From an uncultured Kangiella sp. (GTDB taxonomy: Bacteria; Pseudomonadota; Gammaproteobacteria; Enterobacterales; Kangiellaceae), in the NCBI GenBank assembly GCA_947503435.1, contig CANNDL010000005.1, positions 1-64,000 on the forward strand: DNA of 64,000 nt, read 5' to 3'. The notes under the pieces were generated by a model. The model saw nothing but the letters and a program-made list of their open reading frames with translations, was not told the DNA's origin and made no database searches. Positions 26,618 through 62,766 of the stretch are shown here, piece after piece; the first letter of the stretch is position 1, and the number at the start of each line of letters is the position of its first letter. The position numbers and the translations under genes were made by a program.

Positions 26618-27928
26618 CTAGGCTTCTTTTTTAATAGCAGTTATACGCTCACCGATACCATCGTATTTTCGTCCGAGATAGACCGCCAAAGCTCCCCAAG
26701 CAGCGGCTATTCCAGCGCCCACTAACGAGATAGCAGCTAAACCCAATCCTAGACCTTCACTCAACAACGCAAAAATCGAGCCACTGACGGCATCACCACC
26801 ACGATAGACCACTATGTCTATTACTGGCTTAGCTTTAAATCGTTCGTCTTTAGTCACATCGGTAAATAACATTTCACGAGCAGGTCGAGTAACCGCATAA
26901 TTGCCAGCCCTTCTCGTTACCTGTAATGCCAATAAAACTACTATGATAGGTGCAAATGCTAAAACTATCATTCCTGCCATAATGATGAATGGCACCAATG
27001 CTAAAGTAGCTGCCATTCCTAGTTTAGTTGCCATTCTGCCGGTAACAAAGAATGCCAATACAAAGGTTAAGGTGTTAGTTATCCAATCGATGCTGCCAAG
27101 AATTTGTGTTCTATCAGCTCGGGAGTAATCCGCTAATAGATTCTTTTGTTCAAAATAAACAAATGAACCGATAAAGACATACAGTAAAATAAACGCAGCT
27201 ATACCTAGCAAGGTTTTATTAGTAACTACCGCTTTAAATCCAGTCCACCATTGAGCGTTCAATTTTGCTTGCGATAGATCTGCCTCTAAAGCTTCATTAA
27301 GCAAATCTTCCGACTTTAAGCGATACATATAAATCACCAACGGTACCACTAACATAAGTCCTACAGCGGCTATTAGCATCAGATTATCTAGGCCAAGCTT
27401 CTCTGCAAAAATAGTCGGTATTGCTGGTCCAACAATTGCACCTAAACTTGCCCCCGCAGCAACAATTGAAAACACTCTTTTGGATTGTTCCTTGTTAAAG
27501 GTATCAGCCATGAAGCTCCAAAAAACTGATATATGGAACAAGCTAAAAGCACTAACCCAAACATAAAAACTTTTTTCGACTAAAGTTGGATCGGGGAAAA
27601 GTGGTACTAAAAAATAGAAAGCCAAAAAGCTTACTGCAAAAGCGGTGTAAACCAGCGGAACAACATTTTTAAATTTTAGCTTAGAAATAATTAAGCCGTA
27701 TAAAGAAACAATAGCAATGCTAATAAAAAACTGTAGATTCCATAAAAAGCTTACTTCGGAGTCGGACCAATCACTGGCCATCGCATCACGCACAGGGCGC
27801 AATACAAAATAAGACGCCATCAATATAAATATGATGGCGAAAGAAATAATGGTCGCTTTAAGTTCATTAGGATGAACTTTAGAAACGCGATCAATTAATC
27901 GCGTTAATGGGTTTGAACTTAAAGTCAT
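26618..27928 (-). CDS. MFS transporter
   Basis: 436 aa with about 12 hydrophobic helices in two halves, joined by a cytoplasmic loop near residues 210-235. The first helix pair contains FVLRPVRDAMASD, a stretch common to a group of MFS proteins distantly related to NTP/NDP exchangers; the conserved TRRAGNYAVTRPAREMLFT segment lies in the second half. Substrate cannot be read from sequence. Its ATG is separated by 1 nt from the stop of the upstream SDR gene, so the two are co-translated. Confidence 0.88.
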   Translation of the reverse strand: MTLSSNPLTRLIDRVSKVHPNELKATIISFAIIFILMASYFVLRPVRDAMASDWSDSEVSFLWNLQFFISIAIVSLYGLIISKLKFKNVVPLVYTAFAVSFLAFYFLVPLFPDPTLVEKSFYVWVSAFSLFHISVFWSFMADTFNKEQSKRVFSIVAAGASLGAIVGPAIPTIFAEKLGLDNLMLIAAVGLMLVVPLVIYMYRLKSEDLLNEALEADLSQAKLNAQWWTGFKAVVTNKTLLGIAAFILLYVFIGSFVYFEQKNLLADYSRADRTQILGSIDWITNTLTFVLAFFVTGRMATKLGMAATLALVPFIIMAGMIVLAFAPIIVVLLALQVTRRAGNYAVTRPAREMLFTDVTKDERFKAKPVIDIVVYRGGDAVSGSIFALLSEGLGLGLAAISLVGAGIAAAWGALAVYLGRKYDGIGERITAIKKEA

Positions 27929-27929
27929 A

Positions 27930-28892
27930 TTATTTTGCTTTTGATTCTACGGGAGATAATTTTTCTAATTCTTGATCCAGAATTTTTATCAACTCATCTC
28001 GACTAAAGCTAAACTGATGATTATGATTCATTTGTGCCATTCGCTTAATCATGCCGCGAATAGCCCACTCACCTTCACTTTTAACTGGCACTACCATATA
28101 TCGAGCTTTGGGAGTGCTGCTGAATAAAGCATCAACAACAGCCGCAGAAACATCATCGGGTTCTTTATTCCGAGGACGGTCATTCGCTAAATATTGCAAC
28201 AACCCATTGAAATCATCTTCATATAAGCTCTTATCCGCTTTCTTTTTCATACGCTTCAATGCACTGTCAACAATTCTTGAGTTATAGTTTCCTGGCTCGA
28301 CTACACTTACTTTTACACCGAATTTTTCCATTTCTAAATAGAGTGCATCGGTAAAGGCTTCAACCGCAAATTTACTCATGCCATAAGCACCTAAGAAACG
28401 ACTCACGTTTGCCCCTGAAATTGAGCTAATGGTACTGATACGGCCTTTGCTTTCGATAATCAAAGGAGCAAATGCTTTGGTTACGCGATAAGGCCCAAAA
28501 ACGTTCACATCCATTTGAAATTGAATGTCATCTTCAGACATCTCAATCAATGGTGCGAAAACCCCTACACCAGCGTTGTTAATTAAACCGTAAAGCCCAC
28601 GCCCTTGTTTTGCTATAAAATCGACGGCTTTATCAATATCCTCTTGAACGGTAACGTCTAGGCGAACGGCCTGAATATTAGGGATCTTGTTTAACGCATC
28701 CATATCTTTTTGTTTACGCGCGCCGGCATATACAAAGTAGCCCTTATCCGCTAATGTCAGAGCAATGTTTTTGCCAATTCCCGAGGTAGCTCCAGTCACC
28801 AGAATTGCTTTTTGCTTATCTTGCTGCTCAGCTTTAACAACTCCTAAAACTGTAAAGCTAATTATTATCAGTCCAATTAATGTTTTTCGCAT
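27930..28892 (-). CDS. Exported short-chain dehydrogenase/reductase
   Basis: 320 aa from the ATG at 28892; a TTG at 28904 is rejected. An N-terminal hydrophobic signal or anchor (about 4-20, then KAE) precedes a classical SDR: TGATSGIG (33-40), NNAG (105-108), the Ser of STISSISG and the catalytic Tyr170-x3-Lys174. A signal sequence is unusual for this NAD(P)-dependent cytosolic family; it could be an uncleaved membrane anchor. It is the first gene of the SDR-MFS pair. Confidence 0.87.
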   Translation of the reverse strand: MRKTLIGLIIISFTVLGVVKAEQQDKQKAILVTGATSGIGKNIALTLADKGYFVYAGARKQKDMDALNKIPNIQAVRLDVTVQEDIDKAVDFIAKQGRGLYGLINNAGVGVFAPLIEMSEDDIQFQMDVNVFGPYRVTKAFAPLIIESKGRISTISSISGANVSRFLGAYGMSKFAVEAFTDALYLEMEKFGVKVSVVEPGNYNSRIVDSALKRMKKKADKSLYEDDFNGLLQYLANDRPRNKEPDDVSAAVVDALFSSTPKARYMVVPVKSEGEWAIRGMIKRMAQMNHNHQFSFSRDELIKILDQELEKLSPVESKAK

Positions 28893-35731: not shown

Positions 35732-35826
35732 AATTTTCTGACAGCTAAAAAAAGTTTTTTTCCCTTGACTCCGCTCAACATCAAGCGACTCAAGGCTTAG
35801 CGCCCAATCTAAAGTTTTCCCACATT

Positions 35827-35835
35827 TTATCCACA
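35827..35835 (+). promoter_or_regulatory. DnaA box in the nrdA promoter region
   Basis: TTATCCACA, identical to the strong R1-type DnaA box. About 15 nt upstream TTTTCCCACA is a weaker match. E. coli nrdAB is also controlled by tandem DnaA boxes, which link dNTP supply to initiation of replication. Confidence 0.65.
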
Positions 35836-35875
35836 AGATATTCCACTAAATATACCCTTGCCAAGGGGAAAAAAA

Positions 35876-35921
35876 CGCACTATCTTGTATCTGTGTTCAA
35901 ACCGAGCACTATATATTGACA
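35876..35921. promoter_or_regulatory. Two NrdR-like boxes
   Basis: GCACTATCTTGTAT (35877-35890) and GCACTATATATTGAC (35906-35920) resemble the NrdR consensus ACACTATATATTGTGT, with CACTAT starts 29 nt apart. NrdR boxes normally occur as pairs about 31 nt apart, so the spacing is slightly short. NrdR represses ribonucleotide reductase genes when dATP is abundant. Confidence 0.55.
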
Positions 35922-36076
35922 ATTAAGAGTTTGCGCTAACCTATTGATATTTGGTTAACGGAAGCTCAAAGTAAGAAATTTATGGTTAAATTTCAACCGA
36001 TTTGTGTTTTAACCATAAAAAACAAAAATTTTAATAAGACAATAATGACTGAAATTAATAAGAGGTTCGTGGATTA

Positions 36077-38959
36077 ATGGAAACCGAAGCCGGTAAACAA
36101 GCTAGCCAAAATGCCGAACAAGGCGCTGCGCCAGCAACTCCTTCAGAGACTAATCACCCTGAAATTCAAGCAACTAAACCTGGGGAAATTCGTGTAATTC
36201 GTCGTAACGGTAAAGTAACACCGTACGAAGATTCGAAAATTGAAGTTGCAATGACTAAAGCATTCTTAGCAGTAGAAGGTGGGGCTGCAGCTGCTTCAGG
36301 TCGTGTACATGAAACGGTTAAACAATTAACGCAAATGATCAGTGATGCTTTCAAGCGCCGTTTACCAGCGGGCGGAACTATCCATATTGAAGATATTCAA
36401 GATCAAGTTGAGCTAGCTTTAATGCGTAATGGCGAGCAAAAAATTGCTCGTGCTTACGTTTTATATCGTGAAGAACGTTCAAAAGAGCGTGCCGAAAGAG
36501 ACAGCGCCAAGTTAGATGCTATCGTCGGCGATCATCAGTACATGGTAACGGTTGAAGATGGCTCGCAACGTCCTTTAGACGTACAGCGTTTACACACAGT
36601 AGTATTAGAAGCTTGTAAAGACTTGGACGACGTTGATGCTGACGGCATCATCAAAGAAACCATGCGTAACCTATATGATGGTGTAGCGATCAAAGACGTT
36701 TACCAAGCCATGGTTATGACAGCACGCACCATGATTGAAAATGAGCCAAACTATACTTATGTAACAGCTCGATTATTAATGGATTCTATTCGCACAGAAG
36801 CTTTGCAAGCTTTAGGTGTCGCCAAACGCGCCACTCAAGCGGAAATGACGGCTATCTATCCACAAGCCTTTAAAGCTTACTTGCAACTGGGTGTGGATAA
36901 CGAATTATTAAGCCCTGAATTATTAACATTTGATTTGGATCGCTTAGCAGCAGCCATTAAGCCTGAACGCGACATGCAGTTCACTTACCTTGGCATTCAA
37001 ACTTTATTCGATCGTTATTTCATTCATAAAGATGAAGTGCGTATCGAGTTACCACAGATATTCTGGATGCGTGTTTGTATGGGCCTAGCGGTTCGCGAAG
37101 ACGACCGTGAAGCAAGAGCTATCGAGTTCTACGATAACTTATCAAGCTTCCACTACATGAGCTCAACGCCTACTCTATTTAATTCTGGTACTTTACGTCC
37201 TCAGTTATCAAGCTGCTATTTAACCAACGTTCCAGATGACTTAGATGGCATCTATGGCGCAATTAAAGATAACGCCATGTTATCGAAGTTTGCTGGCGGT
37301 TTAGGTAATGATTGGACGCCTGTTCGAAGCTTAGGCGCTTACATCAAAGGCACTAACGGTAAATCACAAGGCGTTGTACCTTTCTTAAAAGTTGCCAACG
37401 ATACTGCGGTTGCGGTTAACCAAGGTGGTAAGCGTAAAGGCGCAGTTTGTGCCTACTTAGAAACTTGGCACAGTGACATCGAAGAGTTCTTAGAGCTACG
37501 TAAAAATACCGGCGATGATCGTCGTCGTACACACGATATGAATTCAGCTAACTGGGTTCCTGATTTATTCTTAAAGCGTGTGGCAACTGATGGCGAGTGG
37601 ACTTTGTTCAGCCCACACGAAGTGCCTGACTTACACGATTTATACGGTAAAGCTTTTGAAGAGCGTTACGAGTATTACGAAGAGATGGCAAGATACGGCA
37701 AAATCAAAACAGCCAAAACTATGGTTGCTAAAGATTTATGGCGCAAAATGCTTTCGATGTTATTTGAAACGGGTCACCCTTGGATCACATTTAAAGATCC
37801 TTGTAACATTCGCTCGCCACAGCAACACGCAGGCGTGGTACACAGTTCAAACTTGTGTACAGAGATTACGCTTAACACTAAAGCGCGCGAAGAAATTGCG
37901 GTATGTAACTTAGGTTCTGTGAATCTTCCTAAGCACATGAAAGATGGCAAACTAGATTTAGAACAGCTTGAAAAAACCGTTAATACTTCGGTACGTATGT
38001 TGGATAACGTTATCGACATTAACTTCTATCCGGTTGAGACAGCCAAAGCTTCTAACATGCGCCACCGCCCTATCGGCTTAGGCATGATGGGTTTCCAAGA
38101 TGCGATATACATGCAGAATATTGCTTACTCGTCTGACGCAGCAGTTGAGTTTGCGGATCGTGCGATGGAAGCTATTTCTTACTACGCTATCCAAGCTTCA
38201 ACTAACTTGGCAGAAGAGCGTGGCTCCTACGAAACCTATGAAGGTTCTTTATGGTCACAAGGCATCTTGCCAATTGATTCAGTACAGAAATTAATTGATG
38301 AGCGCGGTAGCGACTTTATCGAAGTAGACCAATCACAGACTATGGATTGGAATACTTTACGTAGTCGAGTTGAAACCGTGGGCATGCGTAACTCAAACGT
38401 TATGGCGATTGCTCCAACCGCGACTATTTCAAACATCACTGGTGTTTCTCAATCAATTGAGCCGACTTACCAAAACCTATACGTGAAATCGAACCTTTCT
38501 GGTGAGTTCACGGTAGTTAACCCATACATGGTGAACGAGCTTAAAGCTCGCAACTTGTGGGACAAGGTAATGGTTAATGATTTGAAATACTACGAAGGTA
38601 GCTTAACTCAAATCGACCGAATTCCTGATGATGTAAAACACTTATTCTCGACAGCTTTCGAAATTGAGCCGAAATGGTTAGTAGAAGCTGCGAGTCGTCG
38701 TCAAAAATGGATTGACCAAGCGCAATCATTAAACCTATACATGAGCGAACCTTCGGGTAAGAAGCTGGATATGGTTTATCGTATGGCTTGGTTCCGTGGC
38801 CTGAAAACCACATACTATTTGCGCTCTTTAGGTGCAACTAGCACGGAAAAATCAACCATTAGCGATGGCAAACTGAACGCCGTAGCCGCAGCGCCCGTAG
38901 GCTCTGCTGCGCCACAAGCATGTTCGATTGATGATCCTGATTGCGAGGCTTGTCAATAA
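36077..38959 (+). CDS. nrdA: Class Ia ribonucleotide reductase alpha subunit
   Basis: 960 aa, longer than E. coli NrdA (761) because of two N-terminal ATP-cone regions (about 38-140 and 155-245), as in Pseudomonas. Catalytic residues: Cys of LSSCYLTNV, the thiyl-radical Cys and Glu in SSNLCTEITLN, Cys of EIAVCNLGSVN, the radical-transfer Tyr pair in TTYYLRSLG, and the C-terminal C-x2-C (CEAC) that is re-reduced by thioredoxin or glutaredoxin. It reduces NDPs to dNDPs. nrdB follows after a 252-nt palindrome-rich spacer. Confidence 0.97.
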   Translation: METEAGKQASQNAEQGAAPATPSETNHPEIQATKPGEIRVIRRNGKVTPYEDSKIEVAMTKAFLAVEGGAAAASGRVHETVKQLTQMISDAFKRRLPAGGTIHIEDIQDQVELALMRNGEQKIARAYVLYREERSKERAERDSAKLDAIVGDHQYMVTVEDGSQRPLDVQRLHTVVLEACKDLDDVDADGIIKETMRNLYDGVAIKDVYQAMVMTARTMIENEPNYTYVTARLLMDSIRTEALQALGVAKRATQAEMTAIYPQAFKAYLQLGVDNELLSPELLTFDLDRLAAAIKPERDMQFTYLGIQTLFDRYFIHKDEVRIELPQIFWMRVCMGLAVREDDREARAIEFYDNLSSFHYMSSTPTLFNSGTLRPQLSSCYLTNVPDDLDGIYGAIKDNAMLSKFAGGLGNDWTPVRSLGAYIKGTNGKSQGVVPFLKVANDTAVAVNQGGKRKGAVCAYLETWHSDIEEFLELRKNTGDDRRRTHDMNSANWVPDLFLKRVATDGEWTLFSPHEVPDLHDLYGKAFEERYEYYEEMARYGKIKTAKTMVAKDLWRKMLSMLFETGHPWITFKDPCNIRSPQQHAGVVHSSNLCTEITLNTKAREEIAVCNLGSVNLPKHMKDGKLDLEQLEKTVNTSVRMLDNVIDINFYPVETAKASNMRHRPIGLGMMGFQDAIYMQNIAYSSDAAVEFADRAMEAISYYAIQASTNLAEERGSYETYEGSLWSQGILPIDSVQKLIDERGSDFIEVDQSQTMDWNTLRSRVETVGMRNSNVMAIAPTATISNITGVSQSIEPTYQNLYVKSNLSGEFTVVNPYMVNELKARNLWDKVMVNDLKYYEGSLTQIDRIPDDVKHLFSTAFEIEPKWLVEAASRRQKWIDQAQSLNLYMSEPSGKKLDMVYRMAWFRGLKTTYYLRSLGATSTEKSTISDGKLNAVAAAPVGSAAPQACSIDDPDCEACQ

Positions 38960-39211
38960 GCTTAGCTTAAAGACGAACTTCATGATCTAACTCAAGATCA
39001 AGCATGCTTAATTGTCGATAGGATTTAGATGTTTTAAATCCAATCGACGTAAAACAAAAGAGAAGTAAGGGCATTTAAATGCCTAATGACAACTAGAAAA
39101 GTTAGGGGAGATGGTTCTCGTTCTCCATATTTAAGAGAGAACCCAAATAAATTTGAGAGGTTTATTTGCACTCTCCCCACTTTTTAAATTGAACAATTTT
39201 ACGAGGTAACT
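38960..39211 (+). other. Palindrome-rich nrdA-nrdB spacer (candidate structured RNA)
   Basis: 252 nt packed with inverted repeats. TGATCT/AGATCA (38983-39000) and palindrome AAGCATGCTT (39001-39010) come first. GTCGATAGGATTTA pairs with TAAATCCAATCGAC around a 7-nt loop (39015-39049, one A-A mismatch). Palindrome GGCATTTAAATGCC follows (39070-39083). Last is a three-way junction: outer stem GGGGAGA/TCTCCCC (39105-39111 with 39172-39178), arm GGTTCTC/GAGAACC (39113-39119 with 39137-39143) and arm AAATAAA/TTTATTT (39145-39151 with 39161-39167). A TTTTT run comes right after the junction, then the nrdB Shine-Dalgarno. No ORF is present. Confidence 0.65.
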
Positions 39212-40507
39212 ATGTTCAACTGGGATGACTACAATAAAGAAGACCAAGTAGAAGCTAAAAAACCGGCTCAAGAAGCGGTTAAATCAGTTTCGCAAGCAGC
39301 GCCTGTGGTTGAGGAAGCCCCTCAAGCAACAGTGACGCCTGCGCCTACGGCGACCAATACACAAGCAGCAGCGCAAGTTGCTGAACCAAAAGCAGATTAC
39401 TCCAATATTTCTGATCCAGCAGCTCGAGCTAAAGCTGGTTTAGAAAAGTTAGACGTAGCAGCCGGTTTAGAAGAGCTAGAAATGGGTGCGGCTCGCGTTC
39501 AAGTTGATGATAAAAAAATGATCAACTCACGTGCCGACTTAAACCAGTTAGTACCATTCAAATATGACTGGGCTTGGCAAAAATATCTTGATGGTTGTGC
39601 CAACCATTGGATGCCACAAGAAGTTAACATGACCAAAGATGTTGCTACTTGGAAAGATCCTGAAGGTCTATCGGATGATGAACGTCGTATCGTAATGCGC
39701 TCTTTAGGTTATTTCTCAACGGCCGATTCTTTAGTTGCCAACAACCTAGTATTAGCGATTTACCGTTTAATCACTAACCCAGAATGCCGCCAATACATCT
39801 TGCGTCAGGCATTCGAAGAAGCTATCCATACTCACGCTTACCAATATTGTGTTGAATCATTAGGTATGGACGAAGCTGAAGTATTTAACATGTATCGCGA
39901 AGTACCAAGCATCGCTAAAAAAGCCGCTTGGAGTATTGAGCACACCAAAGGTATTTCAAACCCTTCATTCCAAACAGGTACCACTGAATCGGATCAAGAG
40001 TTATTACGTAACTTGATAGGTTTCTACTGTGTTACCGAAGGTGTTTTCTTCTACTGTGGCTTCACCCAAATTCTATCAATGGGTCGTCGTAACAAGATGA
40101 CTGGTGTTGCTGAGCAATTCCAATACATCTTACGTGACGAGTCAATGCACTTGAACTTTGGTGTAGATGTTATCAACCAAATCAAATTGGAAAACCCACA
40201 TCTTTGGACTGAAGAGTTCCAACAAGAAGTTATCCAAATGATCTTGGAAGGTACCGAGCTTGAAATCGAATATGCGCGTGACACTATGCCACGCGGCGTA
40301 CTAGGCATGAACGCCAGCATGATGGAAGAATACTTACAATTCATCTGTAACCGTCGTCTAGCGCAACTAGGCCTACCAGAGCAATTCCAAGGCGTTTCAA
40401 ACCCATTCCCATGGATGTCTGAAATCATGGATCTTAAGAAAGAGAAAAACTTCTTTGAAACTCGCGTAATCGAGTATCAAACTGGTGGGGCTCTTAGCTG
40501 GGATTAA
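39212..40507 (+). CDS. nrdB: Class Ia ribonucleotide reductase beta subunit
   Basis: 431 aa. The di-iron ligands are visible in KDVATWKD (Asp), [14 protein letters not shown] (Glu, His and the radical Tyr), TEGVFFYCG (Glu) and [10 protein letters not shown] (Glu, His). The N-terminal ~90 residues are an Ala/Pro/Gln-rich, poorly ordered extension starting [11 protein letters not shown], as in Pseudomonas-type NrdB. NrdB makes the stable tyrosyl radical used by NrdA. Shine-Dalgarno ACGAGGT precedes the ATG. A strong terminator lies 87 nt after the stop. Confidence 0.97.
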
Positions 40508-40514
40508 TGCGTTG

Positions 40515-40585
40515 AAGCGTGAGGCGACACATAAATCCAGATTTGCGACACATAAGTCCAGATTATAGTGACGCACTTCACGCTT
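40515..40585. repeat. Tandem 20-nt repeat inside an inverted repeat
   Basis: GCGACACATAAATCCAGATT (40524-40543) is repeated as GCGACACATAAGTCCAGATT (40545-40564), one difference, period 21. Perfect 8-bp arms AAGCGTGA (40515-40522) and TCACGCTT (40578-40585) enclose the pair. No coding role; it lies in the nrdB 3' region before the terminator. Confidence 0.8.
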
Positions 40586-40593
40586 AGTTCTAA

Positions 40594-40625
40594 ACAAAAA
40601 AGCCTGACATTGTCAGGCTTTTTTA
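40594..40625 (+). terminator. Rho-independent terminator after nrdB
   Basis: Stem AAAAAAGCCTGACA/TGTCAGGCTTTTTT with a 2-4-nt loop and T-run. Confidence 0.9.
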
Positions 40626-61255: not shown

Positions 61256-61696
61256 ATGCTGCCAACTTTACTGATTACTTTTTTATTGATTTTTGTTTGT
61301 GTAGTTATTCATTATGAAGCTTTGTATCGATTTACTTACATTAGTCACAGGCTAAAGATTAAAGGGCGACTAAAGGTAGTGGTGGGAACTATTTGGGCGA
61401 TCTTAGCTCATACTGTTGAAGTTTGGTGCTTTGCATTGGGCTATTACTTTCTGACCAATTTTACTTCAGGAAATCTTGTATCGGATCCTGTTAATCAAAC
61501 ATATTCAAGCTTTATGGACATGGTGTACTTTTCTTTTATTTCATACACAAGTTTAGGTTATGGTGATCTAGTCCCTTCCGGCCCATTACGATTTTTGGCT
61601 GGCACCGAAGCATTAGTAGGACTAGTATTTATTGCTTGGACCGCTTCCTTCCTATACCTGAAAATGGAACACTACTGGAAAGAATCTATCAATTAA
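61256..61696 (+). CDS. Two-TM ion channel family protein
   Basis: 146 aa with hydrophobic segments near residues 2-20, 42-66 and 110-130. A pore loop contains FISYTSLGYGDLVPSG, the K+-channel selectivity filter pattern (TxGYGD). No cytosolic RCK/TrkA domain follows, so it is a minimal pore subunit of the Ion_trans_2 type. Its stop interlocks with the convergent 61693 gene by 4 nt. Confidence 0.87.
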   Translation: MLPTLLITFLLIFVCVVIHYEALYRFTYISHRLKIKGRLKVVVGTIWAILAHTVEVWCFALGYYFLTNFTSGNLVSDPVNQTYSSFMDMVYFSFISYTSLGYGDLVPSGPLRFLAGTEALVGLVFIAWTASFLYLKMEHYWKESIN

Positions 61697-62124
61697 TTCA
61701 TAAATTGGACTATTGCTGCTTGTTCTTGATCCGAACTGGCATAAGCTCTTGCTTTGCCTTGATCGTTAGCACAGTTAAACTCAATAGCATTAAACTTAAT
61801 ATTAGCATTACAAAACCTCTCTCTTAAATTCAGTAGTTGATCTTCATTAATGTCTTGAATATCTAAATCCACAAAAAATTCAGAATGATAATCATGGTTA
61901 AGCTCTTGTAAAACACGTTCAACTTTTAGTTCGTTACCAAAGCCGAATTTTGCGTCTTGTGCAAACCCAGGCAAATGCTCTTCTTCAAGATTAGCATCCA
62001 GATAATAAACTTCTGCTTCTTTTTGAGCAGCCATGATTAAAATAGACACTGGGTAGCTGCTCATCAAAGCTTTTAAACGGTTAAGGTAATTCTTAGGTGT
62101 TCTGTTTTCAATCGCTATTAACAT
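61693..62124 (-). CDS. Conserved hypothetical cytosolic protein
   Basis: 143 aa without signal peptide or membrane helix. It starts MLIAIENRTPKNYLNRLKAL and has a mixed alpha/beta composition, acidic overall, with segments AEVYYLDANLEEEHLPGF and FFVDLDIQDINEDQ. No family recognised. It is monocistronic, upstream of a 650-nt gene-poor region. Confidence 0.7.
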   Translation of the reverse strand: MLIAIENRTPKNYLNRLKALMSSYPVSILIMAAQKEAEVYYLDANLEEEHLPGFAQDAKFGFGNELKVERVLQELNHDYHSEFFVDLDIQDINEDQLLNLRERFCNANIKFNAIEFNCANDQGKARAYASSDQEQAAIVQFMN

Positions 62125-62568
62125 CTTAACTTCTCCTATCCTGCTACACGGATTTGATGAATTAGGACAAGTTTAGCGTTGAATCACAGATTGAGGGGTA
62201 GTCCAATCTTAATATTAGATTCGGTAGCTGGCTACCTTAGTGATAACACCTTAGGTCCTTAGCTTTGCGTCATTGGCTTTAACCAACTTTGCCGTTTCGT
62301 CTAAACTTGTAAAATAATTTTAGCAAAACGTTTCTTCATCACAACAAAAACGTTAAATAAGTCACATTTCATTTTTGCATAATTTTGACATCGCTTAAAA
62401 AACTTGTGTAAACAATTGATTTTTAAGATTTTTAAGATTTAAGTGATATATGAGAAAACTACAAAATAGAGTTTTGATATTCAGTGGAAATTTCAATATT
62501 TGTGTGAAAATCAGACAATTTTGCCACACTACTGGCAAAATTTGTCACCGCCACATCAATTCAAAAGC

Positions 62569-62598
62569 AAAAAAAACCCGCTTTAGGGAAAGCGGGTT
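62569..62598 (-). terminator. Strong terminator with no annotated gene before it
   Basis: Minus-strand stem AACCCGCTTT/AAAGCGGGTT with a 4-nt loop and eight Ts. sodB already has its own terminator 136 nt upstream in the reading direction, so this second one implies another minus-strand transcript between them. Confidence 0.85.
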
Positions 62599-62657
62599 AA
62601 GTTCCATTCTCATTTTATAGACTGCCCCTCTGACTTGACAGTCGGAGAACAATGAAC
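62569..62657 (-). ncRNA. Candidate small RNA between sodB and a strong terminator
   Basis: No ORF is present. On the minus strand a promoter-like pair, TTGAAG and CACAAT with 17-nt spacing, precedes a segment that starts GTTCATTGTTCTCCGACTG and later reads CAGTC, GAGAATGGAAC. These halves pair (GTTC with GAAC, TTCTC with GAGAA, GACTG with CAGTC) into a long bulged stem. The RNA would be about 90 nt including the terminator. It matches no RNA family that I know. Both ends and the promoter are inferred. Confidence 0.5.
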
Positions 62658-62733
62658 GGATTTATTGTGCAAATTACTGCCTTGAGCTTCAAGCTTCAAA
62701 TGTAAAAGCTTTGTAAAACAAATTTTATTGAGG

Positions 62734-62766
62734 CAAAAAAAAGCCTCTACTAAAGAGGCTTTTAAA
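62734..62766 (-). terminator. Rho-independent terminator after sodB
   Basis: Minus-strand stem AAAAGCCTCT/AGAGGCTTTT followed by more Ts, 11 nt after the sodB stop. Confidence 0.9.

Follow-up and report, generated by a model that had tools for sequence, protein, structure and literature searches.

A conserved, terminator-like RNA element in the spacer between nrdA and nrdB of Kangiella

Described elements within operons and the Kangiella nrdA-nrdB locus

Internal terminators and intercistronic stem-loops that set the ratios of messages within an operon are already known, and for this reason the spacer element considered here is placed within a known kind. At the same operon position, E. coli K-12 possesses a spacer of 233 nt that is full of repeats, REP-like by eye, which we take to be REP/BIME arrays. 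These share dense hairpins with the Kangiella element, but REPs are multi-copy, whereas the Kangiella spacer is found once in its own genome and has an unrelated sequence. In Clostridia, internal terminators whose U-runs pair to upstream A-rich sequence have been described and their partial termination measured (PMC9045158). Among them, the terminators of Ruminiclostridium ABC-importer operons resemble the Kangiella element in having a stem-loop and U-run after the first gene, with read-through onward, and in that the U-run can pair with sequence 5' of it; their effect was measured there (PMC9045158), whereas that in Kangiella nrdAB is a proposed one. Unlike theirs, the Kangiella hairpin lies in nrdAB, branches in several species and follows a conserved module of two hairpins whose linker is identical. 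Intergenic stem-loops also set message ratios in the cip-cel operon, where they act by cleavage and decay (PMC10311766), whereas the Kangiella spacer is not known to be cleaved. Cobalamin riboswitches, again RNA elements of ribonucleotide reductase operons, are described in the 5' UTRs of nrdAB and nrdABS (PMC3848588, PMC4342826); they precede the first gene, and the Kangiella spacer has no Rfam cobalamin match.

The DNA analysed, called the window below, is a stretch of 64,000 nt. Its NrdB shares 83-93% identity with five named Kangiella records, which stand at the top of the best 80 matches, and the sequence places the source genome in Kangiella or very close to it. Positions 38960-39211 are exactly the nrdA-nrdB spacer, as the last base of nrdA is 38959 and the first of nrdB is 39212. 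The main features of the locus are as follows:

36077..38959, + strand: nrdA, class I ribonucleotide reductase large subunit, 960 aa (ORF; Pfam PF02867, PF03477, PF00317)
38960..39211, + strand: nrdA-nrdB spacer, the whole element, 252 nt (sequence and fold; single match in its own genome)
39203..39206, + strand: GAGG of the nrdB ribosome-binding site (by eye)
39212..40507, + strand: nrdB, class I ribonucleotide reductase small subunit, 431 aa (ORF; Pfam PF00268)
40601..40624, + strand: terminator-like hairpin and U-run 3' of nrdB, the presumed operon end (by eye)

A scan of the plus strand of the spacer for sigma-70-like sites, the only kind scanned for, found none, and in the window only 26 nt separate the U-run of the spacer from the nrdB start, so that nrdB most likely depends on read-through.

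According to the original prediction, no element with this layout had been described. This agrees with Rfam 15, which gave no match within the spacer at gathering scores, and with the open-access literature on nrdA/nrdB spacer elements, where no description of the Kangiella element was found (subscription journals lay mostly outside the search). It does not extend to the general kind, which has been described (PMC9045158, PMC10311766); the Kangiella element is a new, genus-limited version. A permissive Rfam search of the spacer returned six matches, one to a Listeria sRNA and the others to eukaryotic families, and each scored far under its gathering threshold. Membership of a riboswitch or another known Rfam family was rejected, there being neither a covariance-model match nor, in folded prefixes of seven species, two exclusive conserved structures.

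Fold and conservation of the spacer

The spacer had been described as densely structured, and its minimum free energy is -65.4 kcal/mol (z -4.2), a stability that 0 of 200 dinucleotide shuffles reach (-46.0, sd 4.6). When the plus strand of the window is divided into 253 tiles, each of 252 nt, z is as low in 2 and the energy as low in 20. At least six inverted repeats had been claimed; 20 pairs of at least 6 nt are present and include those named, although several of the remaining pairs are short, AT-rich and expected by chance. The claimed 14-bp hairpin corresponds to GTCGATAGGATTTA/TAAATCCAATCGAC, with arms of 14 nt that are 93% complementary, and further repeats are the palindrome GGCATTTAAA/TTTAAATGCC, GGTTCTC/GAGAACC, TGATCT/AGATCA and GGGGAGA/TCTCCCC (39105-39111/39172-39178). 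The three-way junction that the last of these was said to close appears in the minimum free energy fold, and ACTTTTT (39179-39185) directly follows its closing helix, with 17 nt between the U-run and the GAGG of the nrdB ribosome-binding site, so that the TTTTT reported before this site is also present. The terminal helix is longer than claimed, as the U-run can also pair with the A-rich sequence that precedes the closing helix. The following parts are distinguished, all on the plus strand:

38983..39000, + strand: P0, small hairpin TGATCT/AGATCA (fold and inverted repeats; identical in G016, generality not established)
39002..39011, + strand: J01, GCATGCTTAA; variants recur before P1 in long spacers (by eye)
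39013..39049, + strand: P1 hairpin, with lower helix 39013-39020/39042-39049 and upper helix 39021-39029/39033-39041 (fold and compensatory changes)
39050..39065, + strand: J12, linker TAAAACAAAAGAGAAG, which contains AAAAGAGAAG (sequence comparison)
39069..39084, + strand: P2 hairpin GGGCAT/ATGCCT (fold; pairs not formally counted)
39105..39178, + strand: P3, branched hairpin with closing helix 39105-39111/39172-39178 (fold and inverted repeats)
39113-39119/39137-39143, + strand: P3a, arm of P3
39144-39154/39158-39168, + strand: P3b, arm of P3
39181..39185, + strand: U-run of the terminator-like P3, tail ACTTTTTAAA (sequence and hairpin-plus-U-run test)

Twenty Kangiella genomes were compared, and nrdB was obtained in 18 of them, all 18 spacers being inspected; G008 (55% complete) and G013 (86% complete) yielded none. 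Long spacers of 252-283 nt are found in seven species (the window, G016, G015, G009, G012, G014 and G010), intermediate ones of 139-147 nt in four (G003, G001, G005 and G011, two of these being identical) and short ones of 79-105 nt in another seven, while the spacer of a sister genus (G034, which is locus L009 of the survey below) has 97 nt. The long spacers are built in one order, in which a stretch resembling GCATGCTTAA is followed by P1, the linker with AAAAGAGAAG at its end, P2, P3, CTTTT(T) and lastly the ribosome-binding site of nrdB, and their fold z ranges from -2.1 to -4.9. The purine linker AAAAGAGAAG, mostly single-stranded in predicted folds, is present in 7/7 long, 4/4 intermediate and 0/7 short Kangiella spacers. 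The sister genus has only AGAGAAG in its place, and in G006 and G007 an AGAGAG...GTGAC stretch was seen by eye 3' of the hairpin. P1, P2 and the linker are all missing in the seven short-spacer species. In the NrdB tree the long spacer type requires two changes, not one, because G010 groups with intermediate and short types; a single origin of the long type may still hold, and on the simplest reading the long form may be old within the genus and have been cut down later.

P1 pairs were counted in four of the seven long-spacer species, aligned by plain MAFFT. The other three, namely G015 and G009 with a shortened linker and G010 with a shifted one, came out of register and were left out; a P1-like hairpin still folds in each of them. 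In P1, 29/32 cells are paired and 5/8 pairs are altered on both sides, partners slid out of place pair in 22-47% of cells, and the covariation score is matched by 1/500 shuffles, although the number of pairs changed on both sides, a less favourable measure, is matched by 43/500. P3 folds unbranched, without the three-way junction, in G014 and G010, which were left out of its count, and the junction is therefore established for five species only. In these five, 120/125 cells are paired, and the 4/25 pairs in which both sides are altered all belong to P3a and P3b; the covariation score is again matched by 1/500 shuffles, and the weaker measures by 33/500 (pairs changed on both sides) and 160/500 (further pair types). 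Support for the closing helix amounts to conservation, because 6/7 of its pairs never vary, and the three-way junction is supported through its arms P3a and P3b. P2 was excluded from pair counting, since it is misplaced by MAFFT in G012 and folds differently in G010. All these counts come from small samples (4-5 of the seven long-spacer species) of related species. Covariation in relatives had been put forward with the original prediction as a check on it, and compensatory changes are present in P1 and the P3 arms; the structure is conserved in long-spacer relatives, so that the lack of covariation and of structure conservation named as a refutation is not seen, and the description of the spacer as a candidate regulatory RNA holds.

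Terminator character and occurrence elsewhere

A GC-rich hairpin followed by a U-run, the sequence pattern of intrinsic (Rho-independent) terminators, is found in the Kangiella spacers. The criterion was a U-run together with a GC-closed hairpin at least as stable as -8 kcal/mol; 18/18 Kangiella spacers passed, against 1/28 spacers of other gammaproteobacteria, whose AT content was not matched. This test is lenient for long spacers, as 113/720 shuffles pass it. When shuffles had to match the energy of the real hairpin, at most 1/60 did so in any of the seven long-spacer species and 0/60 in the one short-spacer species tested, while 5/60 and 8/60 did so in two intermediate-spacer species, where the result is weak. 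The hairpin begins 7-8 nt after the nrdA stop in short spacers and lies 33-58 nt before nrdB in long ones where the scoring script picked it; in G016 the script picked another hairpin, and in G012 a weaker one that overlaps the 3' strand of P3. Hairpins are present in the sister genus and the U-run is absent. P3 was missed by a pattern scan, because that scan permits loops of 3-8 only, and it may be a weak terminator or none, because in the window two bases (A, C) separate the closing helix from the U-run.

Spacers from other gammaproteobacteria were surveyed at 28 of 75 loci (L007-L081), namely those with nrdB matched from residue 1 and a spacer of 70-300 nt with no N; the sister-genus locus is included, some genera are repeated, and 37 control spacers were taken from the same loci with a crude ORF caller. 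A z below -2 was found in 22/28 nrdA-nrdB spacers vs 15/37 controls (Fisher P 0.0026, Mann-Whitney P 0.0019, kinship ignored), and nine spacers of 40-69 nt are all unstructured, with z above 0. Structure thus recurs at the nrdA-nrdB spacer with unrelated sequences, the U-run being the Kangiella version. In Acinetobacter loci including L036 and L061, nrdA-nrdB spacers of at least 330 nt seem, by eye, to contain a conserved short ORF that carries HNYMLG close to its beginning.

Copies of the element were sought in the 20 Kangiella genomes with two covariance models, R1 (P1 and the linker, built from four species) and R2 (P3, built from five species), 150 candidates per genome being scored out of 244-1393. 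R1 recovered its own four species at E 1e-12 to 8e-12, then the nrdA-nrdB spacers of G009 and G015 (E 0.08 and 0.11, neither in the model) and five more matches elsewhere (E 0.32 to 0.99), but not the G010 spacer. R2 recovered its own five species at E 1e-15 or better, followed by a G008 site without nrdA or nrdB nearby (E 0.07), the G014 spacer (E 0.24) and a G004 site (E 0.26). Among the candidates scored, neither model found a convincing second place. A mobile or repeated origin was rejected on the single own-genome match and the lack of any plasmid or phage match, and REP/BIME membership, for which many copies are required, on the same single match and on the R1 and R2 results. Two further candidates were set aside: a second exact own-genome match of AAAAGAGAAGNRNG (L114), whose surroundings contain no such element by eye, and a motif common with the nrdA 5' leader (a hairpin, then an A-rich stretch), which the leaders of relatives do not share in sequence.

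Candidate modes of action and neighbouring sequences

With moderate confidence, the spacer RNA is read as a leaky intrinsic terminator inside the operon, which would also stabilise the 3' end and set the nrdA:nrdB message ratio; it is preceded by an upstream module with a putative partner. As the polymerase exits nrdA, P1 and P2 would fold around the linker; P3 would fold next and some transcripts would end at the U-run, while the remaining polymerases would read through into nrdB. Since it is these polymerases that make nrdB, P3 would set the ratio, and it would simultaneously shield the 3' end of the nrdA message. The purine linker between P1 and P2 probably serves a protein or RNA partner that would tune read-through or message life. 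The comparisons show conserved structure and position, compensatory changes, linkage to the nrdA-nrdB locus and, in every Kangiella spacer, a hairpin with a U-run. Among the functions first proposed, the sequence is best matched by control of the NrdA:NrdB ratio through an attenuator or a processing site, whereas sensing of dNTPs or of a protein is without direct support.

On a less likely reading, the spacer would be a processing or stability element without termination: like REP arrays or intercistronic stem-loops, its hairpins would direct cleavage and protect both resulting parts of the message, and the ratio would arise from unequal decay. This reading is favoured by the recurrence of structured spacers in other gammaproteobacteria, mostly without a U-run, by the REP-like repeats of E. 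coli K-12, and by the cip-cel operon, whose ratios are set by stem-loop processing (PMC10311766). The U-run, which stability alone does not need, is nevertheless kept in all 18 Kangiella spacers at any hairpin position. The stability role may be the older one, for which the sister genus and most other gammaproteobacterial spacers speak, being structured without a U-run.

The identity of the linker in 11/11 long and intermediate spacers, while the adjacent helices change, would suit a conditional attenuator, in which P3 is turned on or off by a metabolite (dNTP, ATP), protein or small RNA bound to P1-linker-P2. In folded prefixes of the seven long-spacer species, however, no conserved alternative pairing of GGGGAGA was found with the 3' strand missing, nor does the linker have a partner conserved over these species within 300 nt on either side, although weak pairs between linker and U-run are possible in 3/7. 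Masking of the nrdB ribosome-binding site is likewise not conserved over the seven species: GAGG is mostly paired in 5/7 in prefix folds, and its partners vary by species once flanking sequence is added. Because no conserved antiterminator, leader peptide, alternative terminator-strand pairing or masked ribosome site was found in these species, dNTP sensing and a sensing switch in general are unsupported. The attenuator has no Rfam match either, the seven short-spacer species manage without P1, P2 and the linker, and the conditional switch is on balance decidedly unlikely. The identical linker nevertheless leaves room, on sequence grounds, for a possible protein or RNA partner. An unlikely, more specific proposal is a locus-specific regulatory RNA whose linker AAAAGAGAAG between P1 and P2 would be read by a protein or small RNA that sets the passage of polymerase through P3, thereby regulating, within the operon, the ratio of large to small subunit of ribonucleotide reductase.

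Small RNAs derived from the 3' ends of messages are a known class, and P3 might terminate a stable RNA that is released from the 3' end of nrdA and acts elsewhere via the purine linker; a conserved A-rich stretch, mostly unpaired in predicted probabilities, together with the terminator-like end would fit such an RNA, which we regard as very improbable. Leader-peptide attenuation, in which translation of a 33-aa ORF (39086-39187) that crosses P3 and stops just after the U-run would control the terminator, is scarcely credible: the ORF also stays in frame in G016 (47 aa), but the other 5/7 long-spacer species have no ATG/GTG/TTG frame that starts after the linker and more than 40 nt before the U-run and crosses the latter; with a short ORF through the terminator in only 2/7 species, membership of this class was rejected.

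NrdA and NrdB form one essential enzyme, and the terminator-like RNA of Kangiella, taken with the structured spacers elsewhere, suggests that their doses may often be set apart after transcription start. If the leaky-terminator reading is true, it becomes a testable question whether the spacer sets the NrdA:NrdB ratio and whether this ratio shifts under dNTP stress.

Several other features were observed in and around the locus. Upstream of nrdA (window 35820-35925), TTATCCACA resembles a DnaA box by eye, and CGCACTATCTTGTAT and GCACTATATATTGACA resemble the NrdR-box consensus; comparable stretches precede nrdA in the relatives inspected (by eye). Behind nrdB, at 40525-40564, the direct repeat CGACACATAARTCCAGATT occurs in 2 copies 21 nt apart, with no further copy in its own genome at up to one mismatch, and it resembles the remnant of an insertion-sequence end. 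Only two plus-strand tiles, 27721-27972 and 62497-62748, fold with a z lower than that of the spacer, and the second of these carries terminator-like hairpins on the minus strand (by eye). A c-di-GMP-I riboswitch (Rfam RF01051, 71.8 bits) was identified on the minus strand at 62220-62303, and a 143-aa ORF lies downstream of it on the same strand (61693-62124).
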